A stretch of 32,011 nt of DNA from Methanobrevibacter sp. (GCA_030539795.1 JAUNXN010000007.1:1-32011); one strand, 5' to 3'; counted from the first letter of the stretch, positions 303 through 15,898 are shown. Numbers and translations: made by a program. The notes: generated from the letters alone by a model not told the origin.

Positions 303-464
303 ATGAGTAAAGTGCCGACTCTGGTCAAAATCGATGAGTTTAAAGGCCGTCGCCATGGTGATGACATGGATATAGTTTCCTATTTCAAAAACATTAAAGA
401 AAAGGAAGCTGAAGAGATTGAACGCCTAGAACAGGAAACCTTAGATATGGGATATGATTACTAA
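303..464 (+). CDS. 53-aa orphan ORF abutting the last CRISPR repeat
   Basis: ATG at 303 directly follows the last base of the terminal repeat; TAA ends at 464. The repeat has in-frame stops at 282, 288 and 291, so the frame cannot extend through the array. The product begins MSKVPTLVKIDEFKGRRHGD and ends in a charged, probably helical stretch rich in Lys and Glu (IKEKEAEEIERLEQE) followed by DMGYDY. I recognise no family. It has an unusual number of G/C-rich codons (CCG, CTG, CGT, CGC) for this AT-rich region. A 7-bp stem followed by a T-tract overlaps the stop codon, which supports a transcribed unit. The only ribosome-site-like bases (GGA) come from the repeat itself. It could be the tail of a gene cut by the array or a small acquired gene. 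Confidence 0.45.
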   Translation: MSKVPTLVKIDEFKGRRHGDDMDIVSYFKNIKEKEAEEIERLEQETLDMGYDY

Positions 465-522: not shown

Positions 523-560
523 TACTTTTCAAATGCTCTCTGGGAAAACTCTTAAATATA
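523..560 (+). promoter_or_regulatory. mre11-rad50 promoter with shared 19-bp element
   Basis: TACTTTTCAAATGCTCTCT (523-541) lies 10 nt upstream of a TATA-like stretch CTTAAATATA (551-560). The start codon is at 644 with AAGGTAAT before it. The identical 19 bases occur on the minus strand at 12826-12808, upstream of the uvrD-like gene and in the same orientation toward it. The position just upstream of TATA is where an archaeal activator or BRE-region factor would act. That role is inferred; the identity of the two copies is read directly. Confidence 0.6.
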
Positions 561-643: not shown

Positions 644-1861
644 ATGAAATTTGCACATTTAGCAGATACTCATTTAGGTTATCGTCAATTCGGATTAATT
701 GAACGTGAAAAAGACTTTTATGAAGTATTTGAAAAGATTATAGATAAAATAATTGAAGAAAAAGTAGATTTTGTAATACATAGCGGAGATCTGTTTGAAA
801 CTGCAAGGCCATCTCCAAATGCGCTTTTGGTTTTCCAAAAAGGATTGCTTAGACTAAAAGGCGCAGGAATTCCTATGTATGCAATAGCCGGAAACCATGA
901 TATGGTAATGCGTAGTGGAGCAATTCCTCCACATGTAATATTCAAAAGATTAGGCCTCAAGGTAATTAGTCCAATCAATACTAATTATACACAAGGGGAT
1001 GTCTTTATTGCAGGACTACCACACTATCCATCATCACAAGTCAAAGTTTTAAAATCTAAATTAGCGGATTTGTCTAAGATGGCCGCCAAGTATGATAAAT
1101 CAATTTTGGTTTTGCATCAGGGAATTGACAAGTACTTCGGATATAATTATGAACTGGAAATCGGAGATATTCCCGACAATTTTGATTACTATGCCTTAGG
1201 CCACATTCATAATTATATTAATGACAACTTTGGAGAAGGAAAGCTAGTTTATCCGGGTTCCAGTGAAATTTGGAAAACCAGCGAACTTAAAGATTACAAT
1301 GAACATGGAAAAGGTTTTGTTTTAGTTGACTTTGACGGCCCAAAACCATATGTCAAGAGGGTTAAGATTGATATTTCCCGCCAGTTCATTAAGAGATCCA
1401 TTAAATATGACGATCTGGAAAGCGACATTGCGGGAATTAAAGAACTTATTGAAGACGCTGATAAAAAGCCGATTTTGGATTTGGAAATTAAGGATGTTGA
1501 TTCAGATACAAAAGTTGTTTATGACATTATTAAAGAGGAATTGGGCGATTTGGCATTAATGATTAGGCCAAAATTCACCATGGCCGGAGAGAAAAGCATT
1601 GATGAAATATTTGCTGATGAAAATGCAAATATCGGCCCTAAGGAACTCATCATAAAACAGCTGGAAGATTACAATAGTGATGAGGTAAACCAATTGGCTC
1701 TTGATTTATACGATTACCTGTCCAAGGACAAGATTGATGAGTCCATGGATTTGATTGAGCAATTCTATTCTGAATTTTATGACAAGACTAAGAACTATGA
1801 AAGCGCACCTCAAGATGAATTCGAGGATGTTGAAGAAACAGCAGATGAGGTTTTAAAATGA
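644..1861 (+). CDS. mre11: DNA double-strand break repair nuclease Mre11
   Basis: Mn-dependent exo/endonuclease of the Mre11-Rad50 complex that processes DNA ends. Phosphoesterase motifs are in order: LADTHLG with D8 and H10, HSGDLFE with D49, AGNHDM with N84 and H85, then LHQGI, ALGHIHNY and YPGSSEIWK. The acidic C-terminus (after about residue 330) fits the Rad50-binding helices and tail. The length, 405 aa, is normal for archaeal Mre11. The start is ATG preceded by AAGGTAAT. The stop codon overlaps the rad50 start by 4 nt (ATGA), so the two are translationally coupled. The promoter region carries the 19-bp element shared with the uvrD-like operon. Confidence 0.96.
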   Translation: MKFAHLADTHLGYRQFGLIEREKDFYEVFEKIIDKIIEEKVDFVIHSGDLFETARPSPNALLVFQKGLLRLKGAGIPMYAIAGNHDMVMRSGAIPPHVIFKRLGLKVISPINTNYTQGDVFIAGLPHYPSSQVKVLKSKLADLSKMAAKYDKSILVLHQGIDKYFGYNYELEIGDIPDNFDYYALGHIHNYINDNFGEGKLVYPGSSEIWKTSELKDYNEHGKGFVLVDFDGPKPYVKRVKIDISRQFIKRSIKYDDLESDIAGIKELIEDADKKPILDLEIKDVDSDTKVVYDIIKEELGDLALMIRPKFTMAGEKSIDEIFADENANIGPKELIIKQLEDYNSDEVNQLALDLYDYLSKDKIDESMDLIEQFYSEFYDKTKNYESAPQDEFEDVEETADEVLK

Positions 1862-4605
1862 TTTTCACTAAATTAAAACTAAATAATTTCAAGTCTCATG
1901 AAAACACAACCATTAAATTCGATAAGGGAATCAGTGTTATCGTGGGTGAAAATGGTGCAGGAAAATCAACTATCTTGGAAGCAATTAGCTTTGCTTTATT
2001 TAAACAACATACCGGCAAAAAAATCGATGATTTAGTTAGAAACAATGCGCAATCAATGTCTGTAGAATTGGAATTCACTTCTAATTCAAGACAATATAGA
2101 ATAGTTCGTGAAAAGAAATCTAATTTAAAATCATCAATATATAAGAAAACTTCCGCTGATGGAAATTATGTTCATATTTGCACTGGGGATAAGGAAGTAT
2201 CCAATGAGATACGCCAGATTTTAGATATAGATTCAGATCTGTTTTTAAACGCAATTTACATAAGACAAGGTGAAATTGCAGAGTTGGTGGATAAGACTCC
2301 CGCCGAGAAAAAGCAGTTGCTTGGTAAATTGCTGGGCATTGATTCTTTAGAAAAATCCTGGAAAAACTTGTTGCCTTTAATAAATGATTATGAAAATAAG
2401 CTTTCAGAGCTTAAAGGGAAATTATATAACTCAGATAAATTAGTCGAAGAGCTCAATGTTAAAAGAGATGAATTATCATCACTTAAAAATAGAGGTCATG
2501 AACTTGAAGAGCAAATCAATGAGGTAAATGAGTTACGCAGTGAAATTTCTGAAAACAAAAGGAATATGGAAAGGGAAAAGGAGATTTACGATACTCAAGT
2601 AACTAACTTGGATTCCGAAGAAAAAACTTTATCCAGACTTGAAGATGAGAAAAAGGTAATTCAAGAGAATTTGGATAAGATTAGGGAAGCGGAAGAACTA
2701 AGTAACAGATTGGAAAAATACGTTTCCAAATTGGATGTCTACCTTGAATTTGAAAAGGCAGTAAATGCAATTCAAACTTTGAAAAAAGAAGAGCTTGAGA
2801 TTGATAAGAAGTTAGATGCAATTTCCAAGCAAAAACAACTAATTGATGATAATAGGGAAGGCTACAAGAAATTTTTAGATTCCGATGAGGAGATTGCCCG
2901 CTTGGATAATCAGAAGGTCGAATATGAAAAAGATTTGGCCGGCATGACCAAGCTTGAAAAGGATAAGAAGGAACTCCTAAAAGAGATTCAGGATGAACGT
3001 AATGATATTCAAAAATTCTTTGTCAGTTCCAAAGCCAAATTAAAGGATTATGACTTAGACCAGGATGCACTTGATGGAATTGATGATTTAAGTCATCTGG
3101 ACAAGGCTACAAATGATTTCTTAGATGAGGTTTCAGCAAATATCAAAGAGTTAGGTGATGACATAATTTCCAAGAATGAAGAAATTGTTGTATTCAATCA
3201 GAATATCAAATCCAATGAAAAATCTTTAGAGGAATTATATGGTGCTGAAAATAAATGTCCAGTCTGTCAATCTGATATTAATGAAAATAAAAAAGCTGGT
3301 TTAATCAAGGATTATACTGCTGAAATCAATAAAAACACAGAGTTAATTTCCGAGTATGAGGAAGTTGTCTCTGAATTGTCTGAAAATAAGGAAGCCCTGG
3401 AAGATAAACATGACAAATTGCTTGATTTGTTAAAGCATATCTTTGAATATAAGCATAAGTTCCACCATTTGGAAAACCAATCTGACAAATTAAGAAAGAT
3501 TGACCAAGGTTTGGAGTCAAAAGACCTTATCAGCAATAAATTGGGTGAGCTTATACTGGTTATTGCAAATAAGAAATCAGACCGTGAGTCTTACAGGGAA
3601 AATCACGATTTGTATATTCAGGCCAATGGTGCTTTAGAGGTTTTAGGCAGTGAAACCGAGACCCAATTCAAGTTAAAGCAGGTTAAAAATGAAATAGATA
3701 ATCATGTAACCAATATCAAACTTGCAATCGAACAAGATCCTCATTTAAGCAGTGATATCAGTACCCTTGAACTTAAGAATCGTATTGAAGATTTGAAAAA
3801 GAAAAATGAGGAATATAATCAACTTAAAGGATTTATTCAAACCAAACCATCTTTCTTGACTAGATTAAATTCTGTAAAAGAAGAAATCGGAATGTCAATC
3901 AATCAAATTGATATTACTAAAAACAAGATTAGCGCATCAATTTACGATAAGGAAAAGTATGAGCAAATTATTTATCGCTCAGAACTTTACGAAAGAAGAT
4001 ACGAGACATTCAACACTGAATTGCATGAGATTAAAGGAAGGGCTAAGGTATTGATTGGTGATGTTAAAGAGCTGAACATTAAAATCGATACAGTTAACAG
4101 ATTCCAGCAAGAATATGATGACATTTCAGATTACATTAATCTTTTAAGTCATATAAGAAGCTTATTCAGTAAGAATGGTATTCAAAAAGATTTAAGGAAT
4201 ATTTCAAGGCCTTTAATCCAGAAATACACCAAAGAATTCTTCAATGAATTTAACTTTAATTATTCTGATTTAACACTTGATGATGATTATGACGTGACCG
4301 TTTACGGTCCTGAAGGAGAATCATCAATGAGCATGGTTAGTGGTGGTGAAAAGATAGCTATTGCTCTTGCTTTAAGGCTTGGAATTACTCAGGCAATGGC
4401 TAATGGTGAATTGGACACAATCCTATTGGATGAACCTACAATTCATTTGGACAGTTCCAGAAGACATGAATTAATCAATTTATTAAAGGAAATGTCTTTA
4501 TTGCCGCAGATGATTATTGTAACCCATGAGCCACAACTTGAAAATGCTGCAGACAATCTGATTAAAGTAGAAAAAGAAAATGGTATTTCAAAAGTAATAA
4601 TGTAG
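1858..4605 (+). CDS. rad50: DNA double-strand break repair ATPase Rad50
   Basis: SMC-like ATPase partner of Mre11. The Walker A motif GENGAGKST is at residues 30-38. Long coiled coils surround a zinc hook CPVC at 467-470, almost exactly mid-protein. The ABC signature SGGEK is at 828-832, and the Walker B motif LLDEPTIHLD has its catalytic Asp-Glu at 858-859. A late ThrHisGlu (VTHEPQ) corresponds to the H-loop. All key residues are present and the length of 915 aa is usual. It overlaps mre11 by 4 nt. Its stop codon lies inside a perfect 10-bp hairpin followed by T-tracts. Confidence 0.97.
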   Translation: MIFTKLKLNNFKSHENTTIKFDKGISVIVGENGAGKSTILEAISFALFKQHTGKKIDDLVRNNAQSMSVELEFTSNSRQYRIVREKKSNLKSSIYKKTSADGNYVHICTGDKEVSNEIRQILDIDSDLFLNAIYIRQGEIAELVDKTPAEKKQLLGKLLGIDSLEKSWKNLLPLINDYENKLSELKGKLYNSDKLVEELNVKRDELSSLKNRGHELEEQINEVNELRSEISENKRNMEREKEIYDTQVTNLDSEEKTLSRLEDEKKVIQENLDKIREAEELSNRLEKYVSKLDVYLEFEKAVNAIQTLKKEELEIDKKLDAISKQKQLIDDNREGYKKFLDSDEEIARLDNQKVEYEKDLAGMTKLEKDKKELLKEIQDERNDIQKFFVSSKAKLKDYDLDQDALDGIDDLSHLDKATNDFLDEVSANIKELGDDIISKNEEIVVFNQNIKSNEKSLEELYGAENKCPVCQSDINENKKAGLIKDYTAEINKNTELISEYEEVVSELSENKEALEDKHDKLLDLLKHIFEYKHKFHHLENQSDKLRKIDQGLESKDLISNKLGELILVIANKKSDRESYRENHDLYIQANGALEVLGSETETQFKLKQVKNEIDNHVTNIKLAIEQDPHLSSDISTLELKNRIEDLKKKNEEYNQLKGFIQTKPSFLTRLNSVKEEIGMSINQIDITKNKISASIYDKEKYEQIIYRSELYERRYETFNTELHEIKGRAKVLIGDVKELNIKIDTVNRFQQEYDDISDYINLLSHIRSLFSKNGIQKDLRNISRPLIQKYTKEFFNEFNFNYSDLTLDDDYDVTVYGPEGESSMSMVSGGEKIAIALALRLGITQAMANGELDTILLDEPTIHLDSSRRHELINLLKEMSLLPQMIIVTHEPQLENAADNLIKVEKENGISKVIM

Positions 4606-4635
4606 ATTACATTATTATCTTTTTATTTTTTTTTT
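4595..4635 (+). terminator. rad50 terminator hairpin overlapping the stop codon
   Basis: TAATAATGTA (4595-4604) and TACATTATTA (4608-4617) form perfect 10-bp arms around the loop GAT, followed by two T runs to 4635. The rad50 TAG (4603-4605) lies inside the hairpin. The convergent TIR-like gene ends at 4634. Confidence 0.7.
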
Positions 4636-5038
4636 ACATTGTTTCAGGCGCATCCTTGATAGAGTCGATAATGCAGTTTGCGTTCCATCCCACGATGGTT
4701 GCAGCTTTCTCTTCTAATTTTTCAGGAACTTCTTCAACGCCTAATGGTCTGACCAGAACGATTGGAATGTCGTATTTTTCGCTTGCAGCCAATAAATCTT
4801 CAAATAATTCTGTATTATCATTATAAAGTCCGGAAAGCATTATGATTCTGTCTACTTTTTTGTAAAACTCTTCACCTGCGGAAGCATATGACCCTGACAT
4901 TGACTCTTTCCATAGAAATTCAACTTTTGAGAATAATTTTTCTGTAAACTGGCCATATTCATTGTTTTGATCTATGCCCTGTGTAATTATTAAATTGTAA
5001 ATCTTATCATCTCGTTCATCTTCAAACATTTTTTTCAC
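4634..5038 (-). CDS. Stand-alone TIR-like (MTH538/DUF1863 type) protein
   Basis: A 134-aa protein with the flavodoxin-like pattern of MTH538-type TIR-like domains, the family that includes ThsB of Thoeris. Strand segments YNLIIT and DRIIMLSGLY are followed by a helix NTELFEDLLAASEKY, then IPIVLVRPLG and the late motif ATIVGWNANCIIDSIKDA. The family call rests on these patterns. I cannot say whether the acidic residues of ELFED sit where the catalytic Glu of NAD-cleaving TIR domains does. No ThsA-like effector is nearby. Neighbours are rad50 (convergent) and a Mur ligase (divergent). The start is supported by a strong AGGTGA site. Possible roles are antiviral signalling or a housekeeping nucleotide-binding function. 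Confidence 0.7.
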   Translation of the reverse strand: MKKMFEDERDDKIYNLIITQGIDQNNEYGQFTEKLFSKVEFLWKESMSGSYASAGEEFYKKVDRIIMLSGLYNDNTELFEDLLAASEKYDIPIVLVRPLGVEEVPEKLEEKAATIVGWNANCIIDSIKDAPETM

Positions 5039-9060: not shown

Positions 9061-10296
9061 TTAAGGAATTTTAAAGTCTTTTGCATTAACAGTGTTATTT
9101 TTACAGAATGTTTTAAAATCGCAAGCGCTGCAGGTTCTTTCATCTGAATCCGCTTTCCATGCATCTTGAATTTTACATCCCTTAATCTCTTTAATCAATG
9201 ACTCTTCAATATCTGCCACAACACTATCAAATTTCAAAAGAGCTTTTTCCTGTTCCGTTTCATCAACATTAATGATTCTGATGGACCTTGCTATTTTAAA
9301 CTCATCACTCAAATCAGGAGCCTTATCCTCTTCTTCCCAGTTGTTGATTAGGTCAACGTCGTGTTCATATTCATTGCCGATATCAGTAAGGCCATTGTTC
9401 AATTCATCTTTGATTAGCACCAGGTCCTCTTTGGACGGTACAAGCTCATTTAAATAAAAAATTATTCCTGCAACTATAGGCTTTGAGTCTTCCTGTTTTG
9501 ACCTGAGCCAGGAATATGTTAGGATTTGCTGCTTGTGGGTTTCCCACTTGTCCTCAGTTTTTTCGTTAATCACCGCTGTAGGAGGTCTTTTCATTCCCTT
9601 ATAGTCAATGATTATTTCATAGTCGTCCCCCTCGTTGTATTGGGAGATTGTCTTTTGAAAATTGGAATCCTTTTTTAGAAAGTTAATGATCTTATTGTCA
9701 TAGTTGTCCAAATTGCTCTGTTCCAGTGTTCTGTTTATTTTCATTGAAGTCAGCACATCCACAACACCGTTGATGCCGTAGTAATTGGACCTGCTGGTTT
9801 TTTCATCATAATTGGGCATCTGACGCACGCCTTTAATCAAGAGTTCTGAAGAATCGATTAAAGGAAAGAGATGTTTTCCCCATATGTTGATAGCCTTTTC
9901 AGCCCTTGCGCTGGCCAGTTTCTTGTGGTCATGCTCATTCAAATCGTCAATTGTCATATTGCCGTCAGGCTGATTTAAGATGCTGAAAAACAGGTCCTCA
10001 TCGTGAGGGTAAAGCCCCCTGACCTGCAGTCTACTGTCAATCATGTCTTCAATGGGTCTGATGTCCTCTTTCCAATCCCATGGAAATTGAGTATTGTTGT
10101 ATTTCCATTGAATGAAAGCTTCCTCTAAAACGCCGTGAATGAATTCCCCAAACCATCTCTGAACGGGCTTTGAAGGAGGAAGCGTTCCTTTATTTTGGTA
10201 TCTGTATTGCAGATTGCATGTTAAGAATGAAAGCAAATCGCCTGTAAGGCTGTATTCCGGAATTATATATGCTTTTGATCTTGACGGTAACTTCAC
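9061..10296 (-). CDS. PD-(D/E)XK nuclease with Fe-S staple (AddB/Cas4-like)
   Basis: A 411-aa RecB-family nuclease. It shows the RecB motif I region GEFIHGVLEEAF, the catalytic strand YEIIIDYKGM (Asp-x-Lys) and the motif QQILTYSWL. Cysteines C27 and C389, C392, C398 (CxxCx5C near the C-terminus) form the typical iron-sulfur staple of AddB, Dna2 and Cas4-type nucleases. The start is GTG at 10296, placed 7 nt after AGGAAG; an ATG two bases upstream on the minus strand runs at once into a stop. It begins 11 nt after the uvrD-like stop. The pair probably forms a two-subunit helicase-nuclease for processing DNA ends; no AddB-type helicase domain is fused to this nuclease. Confidence 0.85.
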   Translation of the reverse strand: MKLPSRSKAYIIPEYSLTGDLLSFLTCNLQYRYQNKGTLPPSKPVQRWFGEFIHGVLEEAFIQWKYNNTQFPWDWKEDIRPIEDMIDSRLQVRGLYPHDEDLFFSILNQPDGNMTIDDLNEHDHKKLASARAEKAINIWGKHLFPLIDSSELLIKGVRQMPNYDEKTSRSNYYGINGVVDVLTSMKINRTLEQSNLDNYDNKIINFLKKDSNFQKTISQYNEGDDYEIIIDYKGMKRPPTAVINEKTEDKWETHKQQILTYSWLRSKQEDSKPIVAGIIFYLNELVPSKEDLVLIKDELNNGLTDIGNEYEHDVDLINNWEEEDKAPDLSDEFKIARSIRIINVDETEQEKALLKFDSVVADIEESLIKEIKGCKIQDAWKADSDERTCSACDFKTFCKNNTVNAKDFKIP

Positions 10297-10307
10297 ATTA
10301 ACACTTC

Positions 10308-12746
10308 CTAAATTAGATAAATCTCCTTAAATCCGACATATTCCTCATCCCTGCTCCATCCAAGAGCAACGTTCGGAATGTAAAAATGATCGTTTTTAGT
10401 TTTATAACCTTCAATTGCATTGTTGAGGCCTACCAATAACAAAACGCTTTCGGCTCTTGAAAATGCAACAAAATAAAGTCTTGTCAAATCATCGAATTTT
10501 CTGTCTTTTTCACTTCTGTCGCTTTGTCCCAATGAGCTGTATTTCCTGATGGAATCCTCGATTGTCACGTTGTCTTTAAGGGATTTTGGAAATCTGAATA
10601 TTTGAGTTCTGATGTCGTTGTTCTTGAATTTGGAACCGACATCAACAATGACTAGTGGAAATTCCAGTCCTTTTGACTGATGGATTGATAAGACGTTTAC
10701 CCTATTGTCGGGCAATGTTTCAAGAAGAGATTCATCAATTGAAACTCCTCCTGTTGATAAAGGCACAAAAATGTTCCATATTGCCTCTAAAACGGAATCC
10801 CTTTCATGAGTTGGGCTTACAAATGAAATATTTGAGTGATAATCATTGAAAAATCCTGTTTGTGTAATGGATTTGGTAATCGCTTCAAGATATACGATTC
10901 CTTCAACATCATCCTGAAGTTCTTCAATCCAAGTTGTTATCTTGTATGCAAGCTCCATAAGGCTGGCGGTTTTTGGCCATTCGTCATAGCCTTTAGGTTT
11001 TCTCAGCTGCCAGGATGTTACGAATTGGGATAATGTAATAGGCTCATGAGGTTCAGGATTCATTTTTACATATTCCTTGGCCAGCACTCTCCATCGGTTC
11101 ATGTTGTGAATGGCCAATTTAGGAATTGTCTTATCTGATTTTTGAATGCCGGCTTCAGGGTCTATGCACTCGAGAATCAAGCCGCAAAAAACAGCGACAA
11201 TCTCGATATCCTGAAGGTCAATTCCCCTTGGATTGAATATTTCTATTGGCTGGCGGTATCTTTTGAGCTGTTTTCTTAATAGGTATAAAAATGCGTTGTT
11301 TCCATGCTTGTTTTCTTTAGGGGAATATGATAGAATTGCTATGTCTGACGCTGAACCATAGTCGCTGTCCAGTTTAAGGCTTATCTTATCCATTTCCTTG
11401 CCGGCCCTGATTGTTTCCTCTTTAATTTGCAGTAGTTTGGCAATATCGACATTTCCATTTACTTTTTTGTAATATTCCTCATCTAAAACACGCAAGACTT
11501 CCAATTCGCATTCGCCATGATTTACAAGTTTATTTATCAGCATGGACAAGTCCTTCGCAAGCATCTGAGGGTTATTCCTGAACATTCCCAAAACGGGCAT
11601 CTTATCCTTTTCAAAATCGGGAGCTATAATTTTAGGCTTGTTTTCCACTCTTGCCTTTTGGTATTCCTGGTCCAGTTCGACAAACTTATTGCAATGCTCG
11701 ATAATGTTTTGTGTTGAACGGTAGTTTGTTCTTAAATTGATTTCCTCAACATCAATGCCCAGACTTTGCCTGACCCTTTTGGGATAGTTTGTAAACAGGT
11801 CTACGGTTGCGCCTCTGAAGCGGTAAAGTGACTGGTCATCATCGCCTACAACGGTAAGGCTGCCGTCATTTTTTAATGCGGATTTTGCCATTGTGAAATA
11901 GATGTCTTCCTGAAGCAGATTTGTGTCCTGATATTCATCGACCAAAACGATTTTTATTTCATCCAGGAAGGATTTCAATTCATCGCTTTTCAATTTGTTC
12001 AGAAACAGTGATTCCAGCATTGCAAAATCAATCGTATTTCTGTTCAATAGAACTTCCCTATATTCGTTTATGCATTCAAGCGCAATGCGCTGGCCGCTGT
12101 CTTCAGGTGTATTTTGATACAATTCATTAAAGTCAACTTGGTCATGGTATATTCTATTCTTTATTTTAAGGAGTATTTCGCTGATTTTGGATGGCTCATT
12201 AAGTTTTTCATGCCCTTCCAACTCCTTTAGGTAGTCAATAAGTTTGGTGTTTAGATATGTTTCATTTTTAATGATGATTTTTATCATTGCTGATTTGGCG
12301 ACAAATTCTTCAATAACAATGGCTTGGTTTTCCCCAGGTTTCTTATAATCTCTTAACAATTCTTCAGCTATACTGTCAATCGTACCGATTTTAATCAGGT
12401 TGAAATCGATTCTGTTAACTTTCATTATCCTGTCGAAATCATCAGTATTGTCCATCAGATGATTCTTGATTTCATCACCCCAGCCCAGCACTCTTGAGTA
12501 GAGCTCTTCAGCTGCTTTTCTGGTGTATGTTGTAGCCAGTATTGCATTCGGTTCAATGTCATCCACAAATATGTATTTCAATATTTTAAGAACCATTACT
12601 GTAGTTTTACCGGAACCCGGCCCGGCTACAATGAAAAGGGACTTGTTGCTTGGAGATAGTATAGCATTCTTTTGATCTTTATTTGAGGAGATATCTCTTT
12701 TTAATATATTCACTACAATATCTTCAAATTCTTCATATGAAATCAT
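10308..12746 (-). CDS. UvrD/AddA-type superfamily 1 DNA helicase
   Basis: An 812-aa SF1A helicase. It has a Q-motif region NKDQKNAIL (Q25), Walker A AGPGSGKTT (41-49), motif Ia TYTRKAAEEL, motif II LVDEYQDTN, motif III VVGDDDQSLYRFRGA, motif IV region NLRTNYRST, motif V VNVLSIHQSKGLEFPLV and motif VI LYFVAFSRAE. All ATPase and helicase motifs are intact. There is no fused nuclease domain; the Fe-S nuclease is the next gene, 11 nt away. ATG at 12746 follows GAGGG. Its promoter has the 19-bp sequence found also before mre11. Predicted role: 3'-5' translocase of a DNA-end resection complex. Confidence 0.93.
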   Translation of the reverse strand: MISYEEFEDIVVNILKRDISSNKDQKNAILSPSNKSLFIVAGPGSGKTTVMVLKILKYIFVDDIEPNAILATTYTRKAAEELYSRVLGWGDEIKNHLMDNTDDFDRIMKVNRIDFNLIKIGTIDSIAEELLRDYKKPGENQAIVIEEFVAKSAMIKIIIKNETYLNTKLIDYLKELEGHEKLNEPSKISEILLKIKNRIYHDQVDFNELYQNTPEDSGQRIALECINEYREVLLNRNTIDFAMLESLFLNKLKSDELKSFLDEIKIVLVDEYQDTNLLQEDIYFTMAKSALKNDGSLTVVGDDDQSLYRFRGATVDLFTNYPKRVRQSLGIDVEEINLRTNYRSTQNIIEHCNKFVELDQEYQKARVENKPKIIAPDFEKDKMPVLGMFRNNPQMLAKDLSMLINKLVNHGECELEVLRVLDEEYYKKVNGNVDIAKLLQIKEETIRAGKEMDKISLKLDSDYGSASDIAILSYSPKENKHGNNAFLYLLRKQLKRYRQPIEIFNPRGIDLQDIEIVAVFCGLILECIDPEAGIQKSDKTIPKLAIHNMNRWRVLAKEYVKMNPEPHEPITLSQFVTSWQLRKPKGYDEWPKTASLMELAYKITTWIEELQDDVEGIVYLEAITKSITQTGFFNDYHSNISFVSPTHERDSVLEAIWNIFVPLSTGGVSIDESLLETLPDNRVNVLSIHQSKGLEFPLVIVDVGSKFKNNDIRTQIFRFPKSLKDNVTIEDSIRKYSSLGQSDRSEKDRKFDDLTRLYFVAFSRAESVLLLVGLNNAIEGYKTKNDHFYIPNVALGWSRDEEYVGFKEIYLI

Positions 12747-12790
12747 TTTTTCCCTCTAAATCTAATATGATTTAATCTATGTAACTAGGT

Positions 12791-12826
12791 TATTAATAAA
12801 GTAATGTAGAGAGCATTTGAAAAGTA
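12791..12826 (-). promoter_or_regulatory. uvrD-nuclease promoter with shared 19-bp element
   Basis: Read on the minus strand, TACTTTTCAAATGCTCTCT (12826-12808) is followed after 7 nt by TTTATTAATA (12800-12791), a TATA-like box. The gene starts at 12746. The arrangement matches that before mre11 (523-560). Confidence 0.6.
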
Positions 12827-13033: not shown

Positions 13034-15898
13034 ATGTCTGAGGTCAACAATATTGATATGTTTAAAAATGATGTGAGATACAGGGAAAACATCGCCCATA
13101 TTGAAACTATACCGGCTAAAAAGGCAAGTTTTAAAAAAGTTGATAATTTAGATGAAAAAATAATAGATTATCTTAATTCAAAAGATGTAAAACTGTATAA
13201 CCATCAGGCCGAGACTTATGAAGCCATTAAAAATGGGGAAAATGTAATAATTACAACTCCCACAGCATCCGGAAAAACCTTGGCTTTCAATTTGCCGATT
13301 ATGGAAACGATGATTGAAGATTCCGATGCGACTGCCCTTTACATTTATCCCGCAAAGGCACTGTCCAATGACCAGCTGCATGTTCTTGAAAACCTTGAAG
13401 AGCAGCTTGACATAACAATCAACCCAAGAACCTATGATGGAGACACTCCAAGAGACCAGAAGAGGGGGATTCGCGAAAAGTCAAGGATAGTTTTGACAAA
13501 CCCCTATCAGCTGCACCTGATTCTTTCATGGCACCACCAATGGTCCAGGTTTTACAAGAACCTGAGATATATAGTCATTGATGAGGCCCATTATTACAAG
13601 GGAGTGTTCGGCTCAAATGTCGCTTTTCTAATAAAGAGATTAAAGAGAATAGCTAATTTCTATGGCTCTTATCCTCAGTTCATATTATCTTCAGCGACAC
13701 TTGCAAATCCGTTGGAATTGGCCAATAGGCTAACCGGAGAGGATTTTGCTTTAGTTGATGATGACACTTCACCCAGCGGAGAGAAGGACTTCATCTTATA
13801 TAATCCATTTAAGAATTATGTGAGAAACAAGGCCTACACGCAGAATGCGCCGTCTGTGCACATGGAAACTGAAAACATATTCATGTACATGATGCTGAAG
13901 AATATCCAGACTTTATGCTTTACGGTTTCAAGAAAAACCACCGAACTGATTGCAATGTGGGCTAAAAAGGACATGACTCAGGTCAAAGGGAAATTGGCCC
14001 ACCGGATTGCAGCATATAGGGCAGGCTATAGGCCTCAGGAGAGGCGTGAAATTGAAGAGGGCCTCAAAAGCGGTAAATATCTGGGTGTTACATGCACCAA
14101 TGCACTGGAGCTGGGAATTAATATAGGTTCACTTGATGCGGTTATCATTTCAGGCTATCCCGGAACAATGATATCAACTTGGCAGCAATCAGGAAGGGCC
14201 GGAAGAAGCAATCAAAAGTCAATAGCTATCCTAATTGCTTTTGAAAATCAATTGGACCAGTATTTCATGAACAATCCTCAATTTTTCTTTGATAAGCCTC
14301 ATGAAAATGCAATCATCGATTTGACAAATCCCATTCTTCAGGAAGCCCATCTCCTGTGTGCCGCAAAGGAATTGCCGCTCAAACGTGGCGAAGCTGAAAA
14401 ATACTTCGGAATATCACAGAATGTCATAGATGAATTGGTCTTAAAAAAGGATCTCTTTGAAAATCATAACGGTGATTTCATGTATCCCTACGATGATAAT
14501 CCTGCAATGGACCATTCTTTAGACCAGATTTCATCAGAAGAATTCAAAGTAATGAACAACGGCAGGCTTTTGGAAACGATGGAGCGCTCTCAGGTATATA
14601 GGGAAGCCCATGAAGGTGCAATTCTAATCAATAAGGGAGACACCTATGTTGTAAACAGCGTTAATTTAAATAGGGGATATGTCAATGTATCCCAGCAGAC
14701 TGTGGATTATCACACAATGGTCTTAAATAAGACTGAAATTAACATCAAAAGGAAATTGTCCAAAACAAAATACGGCGATTTGACTATTCACTTCGGTGAG
14801 CTTACCGTAAGCGAAGATTACTTCAAATACAAAAAGATGCACTTCTCAAAGGCTATCGGAACATACCCTCTGGATTTGCCTCCTTTAAAATTCAATACAA
14901 AGGGGCTATGGTTCACCATTCCTAAAAGTGTTAAGGACACTCTGGAGGACATGTTTCCAAATGAGGAGGAAGTCTTTGCAGGAGGCCTTCACGGTGCAGA
15001 GCATGCACTGATTGGACTCTTCCCGCTTCATACCATGTGTGACAGATTTGATATAGGAGGACTGTCCACCAATTATCATGAAGATACGCAAGAGGCAAGC
15101 ATTTTTATTTATGATGGTTATGAGGGTGGAATTGGAATCACTGAAAAGGCAGTTGACGTATTTGTTGATTTGCTGAACTCCACAATAGACCTATTAAATA
15201 ACTGCCAATGCAAAAGCGGCTGTCCGGCTTGCATCTACTCACCGAAATGCGGAAATGACAACAAGCCGCTTCACAAGAACGCTACAAAATACATTCTTGA
15301 ATACATGAAGAAGCTAATCTCTGGTGATGTTGAGGGCGAAAAGGAAGAGATTATTGATGTTGATCCAGTCATCGAAGAAAAGGATGAATTTTCAGAAGCG
15401 TTTGATTTATATGAAAAAGGAGATTACTCCGCTTCAAAGGATATTCTGAACAATATCATAGCCAATGATAAAAAGCATGTTAAGGCGTTGGCATTGATGG
15501 CTCAGATATTGTATAATCAGGACCAGAAGGACATTGCGCTGTTATTCACCAAAAAGGCATTGGCCATTGACAAGTCAAATGAGATGGCAAATGACCTTGA
15601 AGTTTTGCTGACAAATAAAACCAAGGAAGATAGTTCTGATTTCAATTCCCTAGACGATGTCGAAGCGTTATATGAAGAAGCCTATGACCTGTATGAGCAG
15701 GGGGATTTGGAAACTTCTTTAGAGCTTTTGGAGAAGCTGCTTGATTTTGATGATAAAAACTCTGAAGCGTTGGCTCTGGTAGGTTTAATATATTATCATT
15801 CCGGATTTTTCCCAAAAGCGGTTGAATACTATAGAAAAGCCATAAAAATAAATAAAAATGGTGAAATGGTTAATCAGTTGAAAATGAGGATTTCTTAG
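13034..15898 (+). CDS. MrfA-like SF2 helicase with C-terminal TPR repeats
   Basis: A 954-aa DExH helicase related to bacterial MrfA/YprA and eukaryotic Hrq1. It has Q-motif LYNHQAETYEAI, Walker A TPTASGKT (K81), DEAH 183-186, motif III SSATLANP, the RecA2 segment TNALELGINIG and motif VI QQSGRAGR. A C-terminal Cys cluster typical of the MrfA/DUF1998 region has C724, C726, C730, C733 and C739. After an acidic linker (about 765-785) come TPR-like repeats to the end (for example SEAFDLYEKGDYSASKDIL and EEAYDLYEQGDLETSLELL), which are not part of the usual MrfA core. The start ATG 13034 is preferred to an in-frame TTG at 13007, since the TATA box puts the transcript start near 13007. The last 4 nt overlap the convergent reductase gene. 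Confidence 0.9.
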   Translation: MSEVNNIDMFKNDVRYRENIAHIETIPAKKASFKKVDNLDEKIIDYLNSKDVKLYNHQAETYEAIKNGENVIITTPTASGKTLAFNLPIMETMIEDSDATALYIYPAKALSNDQLHVLENLEEQLDITINPRTYDGDTPRDQKRGIREKSRIVLTNPYQLHLILSWHHQWSRFYKNLRYIVIDEAHYYKGVFGSNVAFLIKRLKRIANFYGSYPQFILSSATLANPLELANRLTGEDFALVDDDTSPSGEKDFILYNPFKNYVRNKAYTQNAPSVHMETENIFMYMMLKNIQTLCFTVSRKTTELIAMWAKKDMTQVKGKLAHRIAAYRAGYRPQERREIEEGLKSGKYLGVTCTNALELGINIGSLDAVIISGYPGTMISTWQQSGRAGRSNQKSIAILIAFENQLDQYFMNNPQFFFDKPHENAIIDLTNPILQEAHLLCAAKELPLKRGEAEKYFGISQNVIDELVLKKDLFENHNGDFMYPYDDNPAMDHSLDQISSEEFKVMNNGRLLETMERSQVYREAHEGAILINKGDTYVVNSVNLNRGYVNVSQQTVDYHTMVLNKTEINIKRKLSKTKYGDLTIHFGELTVSEDYFKYKKMHFSKAIGTYPLDLPPLKFNTKGLWFTIPKSVKDTLEDMFPNEEEVFAGGLHGAEHALIGLFPLHTMCDRFDIGGLSTNYHEDTQEASIFIYDGYEGGIGITEKAVDVFVDLLNSTIDLLNNCQCKSGCPACIYSPKCGNDNKPLHKNATKYILEYMKKLISGDVEGEKEEIIDVDPVIEEKDEFSEAFDLYEKGDYSASKDILNNIIANDKKHVKALALMAQILYNQDQKDIALLFTKKALAIDKSNEMANDLEVLLTNKTKEDSSDFNSLDDVEALYEEAYDLYEQGDLETSLELLEKLLDFDDKNSEALALVGLIYYHSGFFPKAVEYYRKAIKINKNGEMVNQLKMRIS

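Follow-up and report, generated by a model that had tools for sequence, protein, structure and literature searches.

Two adjacent genes of a Methanobrevibacter sp., a gut methanogen, one encoding a helicase and the other a nuclease, raise the question of whether their products work together and, if they do, whether they serve DNA repair or defense. Both are found on the minus strand of a stretch of 32,011 nucleotides (GCA_030539795.1 JAUNXN010000007.1:1-32011), hereafter called the window, which is the first part of contig 74 of a draft genome that is 80% complete. An original prediction, made from this DNA alone, had presented them as an archaeal AddAB-like pair sharing a promoter element with mre11-rad50. 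We found that the motifs of both proteins are intact, that their pairing is conserved even where the two genes are unlinked, and that the promoter element is indeed shared, and we consider it probable that the two products form a helicase-nuclease of two subunits, possibly domesticated, which would serve the maintenance or repair of chromosomal DNA.

The first of the two intact open reading frames (positions 10308..12746) encodes an 812-residue DNA helicase of the UvrD type, assigned to superfamily 1A (SF1A) by its Pfam and NCBIfam matches, its motifs and a profile comparison with the PDB. It matches PF00580 (UvrD-helicase) at 1e-49 and UvrD_C at 2e-10, thereby displaying both the N and C domains of UvrD, and its complete set of SF1A motifs (GPGSGKTT, DEYQDT, GDDDQSLYRFRGA, NYRS, SIHQSKGLEF and YFVAFSRA) is kept in 15 relatives. 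No nuclease domain, of the PD-(D/E)XK type or otherwise, was detected in this protein by Pfam, just as had been predicted. Among NCBIfam models it comes close to AddA, PcrA and UvrD, yet stays well under all cut-offs (153 versus 708 bits for AddA), and GajB models also match it, as a UvrD relative. When the helicase family profile was compared with solved structures, AddA was the top match (3u44_A, 3e-36) and UvrD1 the second (9e-35), the margin between the two being slight.

The second gene (positions 9061..10296, GTG start codon), located only 11 nucleotides downstream of the helicase gene, encodes a stand-alone RecB-family PD-(D/E)XK nuclease of 411 residues, with PDDEXK_1 (PF12705, 1.5e-10) as its sole Pfam domain. 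Its residues were compared across 17 Methanobrevibacter sequences, 12 sequences from across the Methanobacteriaceae, and bacterial and viral-contig orthologues at 38-46% identity. The H, D, D/E-x-K and QxxxY motifs of the RecB family are all present, and the corresponding residues (H54, G177/D180, D231-Y-K233 and Q257-x3-Y261) are invariant from Methanobrevibacter through Bradyrhizobium, Rhizobium and Picosynechococcus. Over the same archaeal-to-bacterial range, the same holds for C27, C389, C392 and C398, one N-terminal and three C-terminal cysteines that make up a predicted iron-sulfur staple, so that the separate nuclease with C27 and a CxxCx5C motif (389-398) foreseen in the original prediction was confirmed. 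Searching solved structures with the nuclease sequence gave no useful match, and searching phages for the nuclease found none.

Do these two proteins then constitute an AddAB enzyme? The pair resembles AddAB of B. subtilis in having two subunits, a helicase core that is nearest to AddA among solved structures and an AddB-type RecB nuclease with four cysteines. However, a nuclease domain is part of AddA and a helicase-like domain is part of AddB; the pair lacks both and contains a single nuclease, the short nuclease protein carrying PF12705 alone, without a helicase-like region. Because these two domains are absent, the pair is not an AddAB enzyme: the original label stands as an analogy of parts, a split UvrD helicase plus an iron-sulfur RecB-family nuclease, and fails as membership on both subunits. 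Likewise, the nuclease shares with Cas4 and solo-Cas4 proteins the RecB fold motifs and the CxxCx5C motif with an N-terminal cysteine, but it scores only 22 bits against the NCBIfam Cas4 cut-off of 65, is about 411 residues long and has no adjacent cas genes. The pair also differs from Gabija (GajAB), in which the GajA partner belongs to the OLD family, whereas the partner of this helicase is a PD-(D/E)XK protein.

Conservation of the pair was examined in 139 Methanobacteriaceae genomes from 17 genera (labelled g1, g9, g10, g12, g13, g15 and so on; g12 is presumably Methanosphaera, which is only our guess). The nuclease was found in 112 and the helicase in 128 of these 139 genomes. Among the 119 genomes outside g12, 108 encode both proteins, two the helicase alone, four the nuclease alone and five neither (Fisher p 1.4e-5, uncorrected for shared ancestry or draft gaps), and the single-gene genomes include fragments at contig edges. 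Both genes are retained in g10 and g13, where they are on different contigs, and unrooted trees of the helicase and the nuclease concur on the main genus clades. Thus, the pair is co-conserved across the family, unlinked cases included, as the original prediction required. A wider search of the phylum covered 152 genomes, and neither gene was found in the 13 of them that lie outside the Methanobacteriaceae. In Methanobrevibacter, the pair occupies a conserved core locus near mre11-rad50, with no mobile context and no modification genes nearby.

A comparison of loci and genome-wide counts identified the element TACTTTTCAAATGCTCTCT at positions 12808..12826 (minus strand), 61 nucleotides ahead of the helicase start, with a TATA-like box, TTTATTAATAA, read from the sequence just 3' of it (12790..12800, minus strand). 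An identical 19-nucleotide match is located at positions 523..541 (plus strand), 102 nucleotides ahead of the mre11 ATG, so that the sharing with mre11-rad50 claimed at the outset proved exact; these are the two matches with at most three mismatches in the window, where 0.01 would be expected by chance. At the other Methanobrevibacter loci examined, the element is found 57-61 nucleotides ahead of the helicase start with 0-3 mismatches. The source genome contains 22 matches and eleven other Methanobrevibacter genomes contain 9-34, while the reversed sequence, used as a control, gave one match in the source genome and 0-3 per Methanobrevibacter genome. Aligned sites display a strict core followed about 8 nucleotides later by a TATA-like box resembling TTTATATA, at +26 to +33. 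A position-weight null was informative at its 95% level only (1.7 bits), because it included two real sites. The element is partly conserved in a second genus: a g9 genome has 29 sites versus three for the control, with the element at nurA and a weaker copy 267 nucleotides upstream of the helicase gene. In g1 and g9, the pair thus has the element in common with the operons of mre11, nurA or both. Few copies occur in g12 or beyond the Methanobacteriaceae.

Which other genes does the element precede? Downstream genes, where named, were checked by Pfam and NCBIfam. RPA, TopoVI-B, UvrA and a Xer-like recombinase each stand behind the element in all five Methanobrevibacter genomes examined, and further genes behind it include the helicase-nuclease pair, mre11, Hef, a Hel308-like helicase, two XPD/DinG-like helicases, Hjc, MCM and NrdD, the anaerobic ribonucleotide reductase. 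The nurA-herA-mre11-rad50 set is also preceded by it, and so are genes for DUF763, for a YdjM-like protein, for an HhH protein similar to MutS2 and for small proteins to which no function is assigned; certain sites have no clear gene downstream. In the g9 genome, the sites precede orthologues of RPA, Hef, Hel308, Hjc, XPD/DinG, DUF763 and a small protein, together with Orc1/Cdc6 and the large subunit of PolD. In one complete genome (G043), about 10 of the 20 sites retrieved precede replication, repair or recombination genes, which would occur by chance with p ~1e-8 if 5% of genes belonged to this class, the 5% being an assumption. Genes carrying the element would be co-regulated, and we lean towards the view that the Methanobacteriaceae possess a coordinated replication-repair regulon, SOS-like in function, in which TACTTTTCAAATGCTCTCT beside a TATA box drives nurA-herA-mre11-rad50, RPA, TopoVI-B, UvrA, Hef, Hel308, XPD/DinG, Hjc and NrdD, as well as a pair that either came from DNA-modification defense islands or was taken up by them later.

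An SOS system based on LexA is not known from archaea, and little is understood about the way in which methanogens coordinate repair. No description of this element or regulon was found in the literature searched, which left most subscription journals uncovered. In another archaeal lineage, a short promoter motif connected with DNA damage has been reported, namely the ultraviolet-response motif of Sulfolobales (PMC5817253); that motif is a hexanucleotide, unlike TACTTTTCAAATGCTCTCT.

The original prediction had also proposed that the pair provides an alternative or parallel resection route, with a check for HerA-NurA. When this check was run, NurA was found in 125 of the 139 Methanobacteriaceae genomes and in all 17 genera, so that a missing HerA-NurA system was rejected. 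The gene order nurA-herA-mre11-rad50 is found in Methanobrevibacter and in a g9 relative. In the window, mre11 (644..1861, plus strand; PF00149 at 7e-16, NCBIfam archaeal Mre11 model at 8e-72) overlaps rad50 (1858..4605, plus strand; Pfam AAA_23 and Rad50 zinc hook) and is preceded by the 3' end of herA (305..463, plus strand), the last ~53 codons of a gene truncated by the contig edge, which tblastn aligns at 82% identity to the herA of locus L063, itself HerA by Pfam. The remainder is lost at the contig end. NurA was not detected in the 80%-complete draft, which looks like a gap because the contig ends inside herA. Considering that NurA is this widespread and that in relatives mre11-rad50 comes straight after nurA-herA, the pair can be no more than a parallel route and is not a replacement: "alternative" has to be dropped.

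A working scheme can be drawn from the protein families involved. A UvrD/AddA-type motor, which its family would predict to move 3'-5', would load, once Mre11-Rad50 (and HerA-NurA) have done their part, on single-stranded DNA or a DNA end, unwind the duplex and pass one strand to the separate RecB-family nuclease, whose fold would be held by the iron-sulfur staple. This would supply RPA and RadA with single-stranded DNA or remove damaged or flapped ends, and expression would be tied to that of other replication and repair genes via the shared element upstream of the TATA box. We infer a physical complex, its polarity and substrate, a regulator, and co-expression. Within a repair function, end resection in parallel to HerA-NurA is our first guess, held tentatively and at somewhat less than even chances, with fork or flap processing close behind.

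An iron-sulfur RecB-type nuclease combined with an SF1 motor is the composition of Dna2 and Bad, and the pair may accordingly be imagined as a repair machine for flaps, stalled forks or lesions instead of one for double-strand end resection. Bad is the bacterial example of such a nuclease-motor protein (PMC7430649). The fork and excision factors of the predicted regulon (Hef, Hel308, Hjc, UvrA and XPD/DinG) would suit this explanation, as would the fact that resection is already covered by HerA-NurA. However, Dna2 and Bad are single fused polypeptides with a 5'-3' SF1B motor, whereas the pair consists of two genes and its motor is a UvrD-type SF1A enzyme, and mre11 and nurA carry the element too. 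We consider this explanation less likely than not.

Several observations weigh against a two-subunit repair machine under a common promoter element. AlphaFold models of the two proteins are weak (predicted local distance difference test scores of 59 and 54) and were given zero weight for this reason; with the nuclease model, the best Foldseek matches were AddB and AddA, at non-significant values (E 0.13-0.2). No copy of the element was seen at the pair in g10, g12, g13 or g15. Moreover, 18 of the 20 g12 genomes encode a diverged helicase (731 and 733 residues in the two that were read) and no nuclease. Such retention of the helicase alone, together with the unlinked genes of g10 and g13, would be expected if the two proteins acted separately, one as an accessory helicase of the UvrD type and the other as a Cas4-like nuclease, with no more in common than a transcript. 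Yet both genes are retained where they are unlinked, and the g12 helicase, left without a nuclease, has a long branch in the tree (1.87) and is missing some segments, for example the one corresponding to residues 575-591 of the window protein. In addition, the nuclease gene directly follows the helicase gene in all five loci found outside the family, and we consider separate action very unlikely.

These five loci bring the last objection to a two-subunit repair machine, and are the reason why a defense function has to be considered. Full-length orthologous pairs outside the Methanobacteriaceae were found on three bacterial plasmids and two viral-labelled contigs (L115 and L123), and mostly adjoin DNA-modification or restriction genes, so that the refuting scenario of the original prediction, a nuclease grouping with defense-linked relatives, is partly realized. 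On the plasmids, tblastn retrieved nuclease orthologues of full length (37% identity) in three cases, and in each of them a full-length helicase orthologue (33-38%) lies immediately ahead of the nuclease gene. The Bradyrhizobium pair lies near queD, queE, dpdA and two dpdB genes; the Rhizobium pair is close to a DpdA that scores 562 bits against a cut-off of 200, to two DpdB and to a DUF6884 protein; the Picosynechococcus pair is near a TGT-like gene and DEAD helicases; and the pair on L115 has Mrr-like and DUF6884 neighbors. Fused UvrD-Cas4 proteins have, moreover, been associated with defense (PMC5704561). The pair might thus be an antiviral or restriction module, in which the helicase would track foreign DNA and the nuclease destroy it, host DNA being somehow protected.

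Against such a module, the pair is near-universal in the Methanobacteriaceae outside g12, its Methanobrevibacter locus is conserved without modification genes nearby, and its promoter element is held in common with replication and repair genes. DpdA reached its cut-off in none of the 139 family genomes, and a Dpd-linked function of the archaeal pair was therefore rejected; the likeness to Dpd islands, which combine 7-deazaguanine DNA modification with restriction, is confined to bacterial plasmid orthologues lying within compact dpdA/dpdB clusters. Long UvrD-PDDEXK frames are also encoded in the Methanobacteriaceae, but the nuclease profile misses the reading frames around them and the helicase profile matches weakly, so that membership of the pair in UvrD-Cas4 fusions was rejected as well. 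An antiviral or restriction module, although the main rival, hence appears unlikely to us. Given that the pair has a core position, is conserved in the absence of modification genes and has its promoter element in common with repair genes, we hold repair to be markedly more probable than defense; our confidences in the individual explanations overlap, because fork or flap processing is itself a variant of repair.

A similar arrangement has been described before. An operon of unfused UvrD and Cas4-like (pfam12705) genes occurs in several bacteria, mostly Clostridiales, in a non-defense context, and a joint role such as DNA repair was proposed for it (Hudaiberdiev et al. 2017, PMC5704561). It likewise consists of separate genes in a predicted operon, but the pair described here is archaeal, near mre11-rad50 and behind a shared promoter element, and the two are likened by description, not by sequence. 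As a separate matter, the compact Dpd-like clusters with the pair near dpdA/dpdB on the Bradyrhizobium and Rhizobium plasmids could represent a variant restriction module for 7-deazaguanine DNA systems, the canonical Dpd restriction using dpdD-K (PMC11888242).

Altogether, the locus suggests a little-known repair machine and a network of DNA-maintenance genes, the latter not found described in the literature searched. The Methanobacteriaceae would then keep an AddAB-like helicase-nuclease beside HerA-NurA, and the relatives of the pair in DNA-modification islands would offer a test case for the exchange of parts between repair and defense. If in two genera one element indeed precedes many genes for double-strand-break, excision and fork repair, the regulator could be approached directly through it, and new repair candidates would emerge, namely DUF763, a 62-residue protein, a 111-residue protein and the YdjM-like protein. 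In two genera, the element precedes the gene for DUF763 (L249, L260 and L320; genomes G000, G043 and G019), a candidate repair or replication factor. A protein of 62-65 residues with a hydrophobic C-terminal half also carries it in two genera (L210, L253 and L310), and its L210 copy has no Pfam match. The element is further found ahead of IS605 TnpB genes (L204, L216, L228, L236 and others), with which nine sites of genome G039 cluster; it seems that the promoter element has been acquired by a transposon.

The divergent neighbor of the UvrD gene in the window (13034..15898, plus strand) encodes a YprA/COG1205-type superfamily 2 helicase with an MZB domain, according to Pfam and NCBIfam, and its window copy has C-terminal tetratricopeptide repeats. 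No promoter element of its own was found at this gene, which adjoins the UvrD gene divergently in g1, g9 and g10 (L075, L078 and L080), even with the nuclease gene elsewhere. Beside rad50, positions 4634-5038 encode a protein of 131-134 residues that is conserved genus-wide and in other genera (L072 and L075) and has no Pfam or NCBIfam match. Finally, the window begins with the end of a CRISPR (clustered regularly interspaced short palindromic repeats) array (positions 10-303), consisting of five repeats of 29-31 nucleotides (GTTTAAAATAGACTTAATAGTATGGAAAT) with spacers of ~36 nucleotides. This array runs straight into the herA tail, possibly through an assembly join, and its last spacer (236-273) resembles herA codons ~308-319 of relatives, with an alignment score exceeding those of 200 shuffles; it could be a spacer matching the genome that it comes from, or else the product of a chimeric assembly with the adjoining herA.

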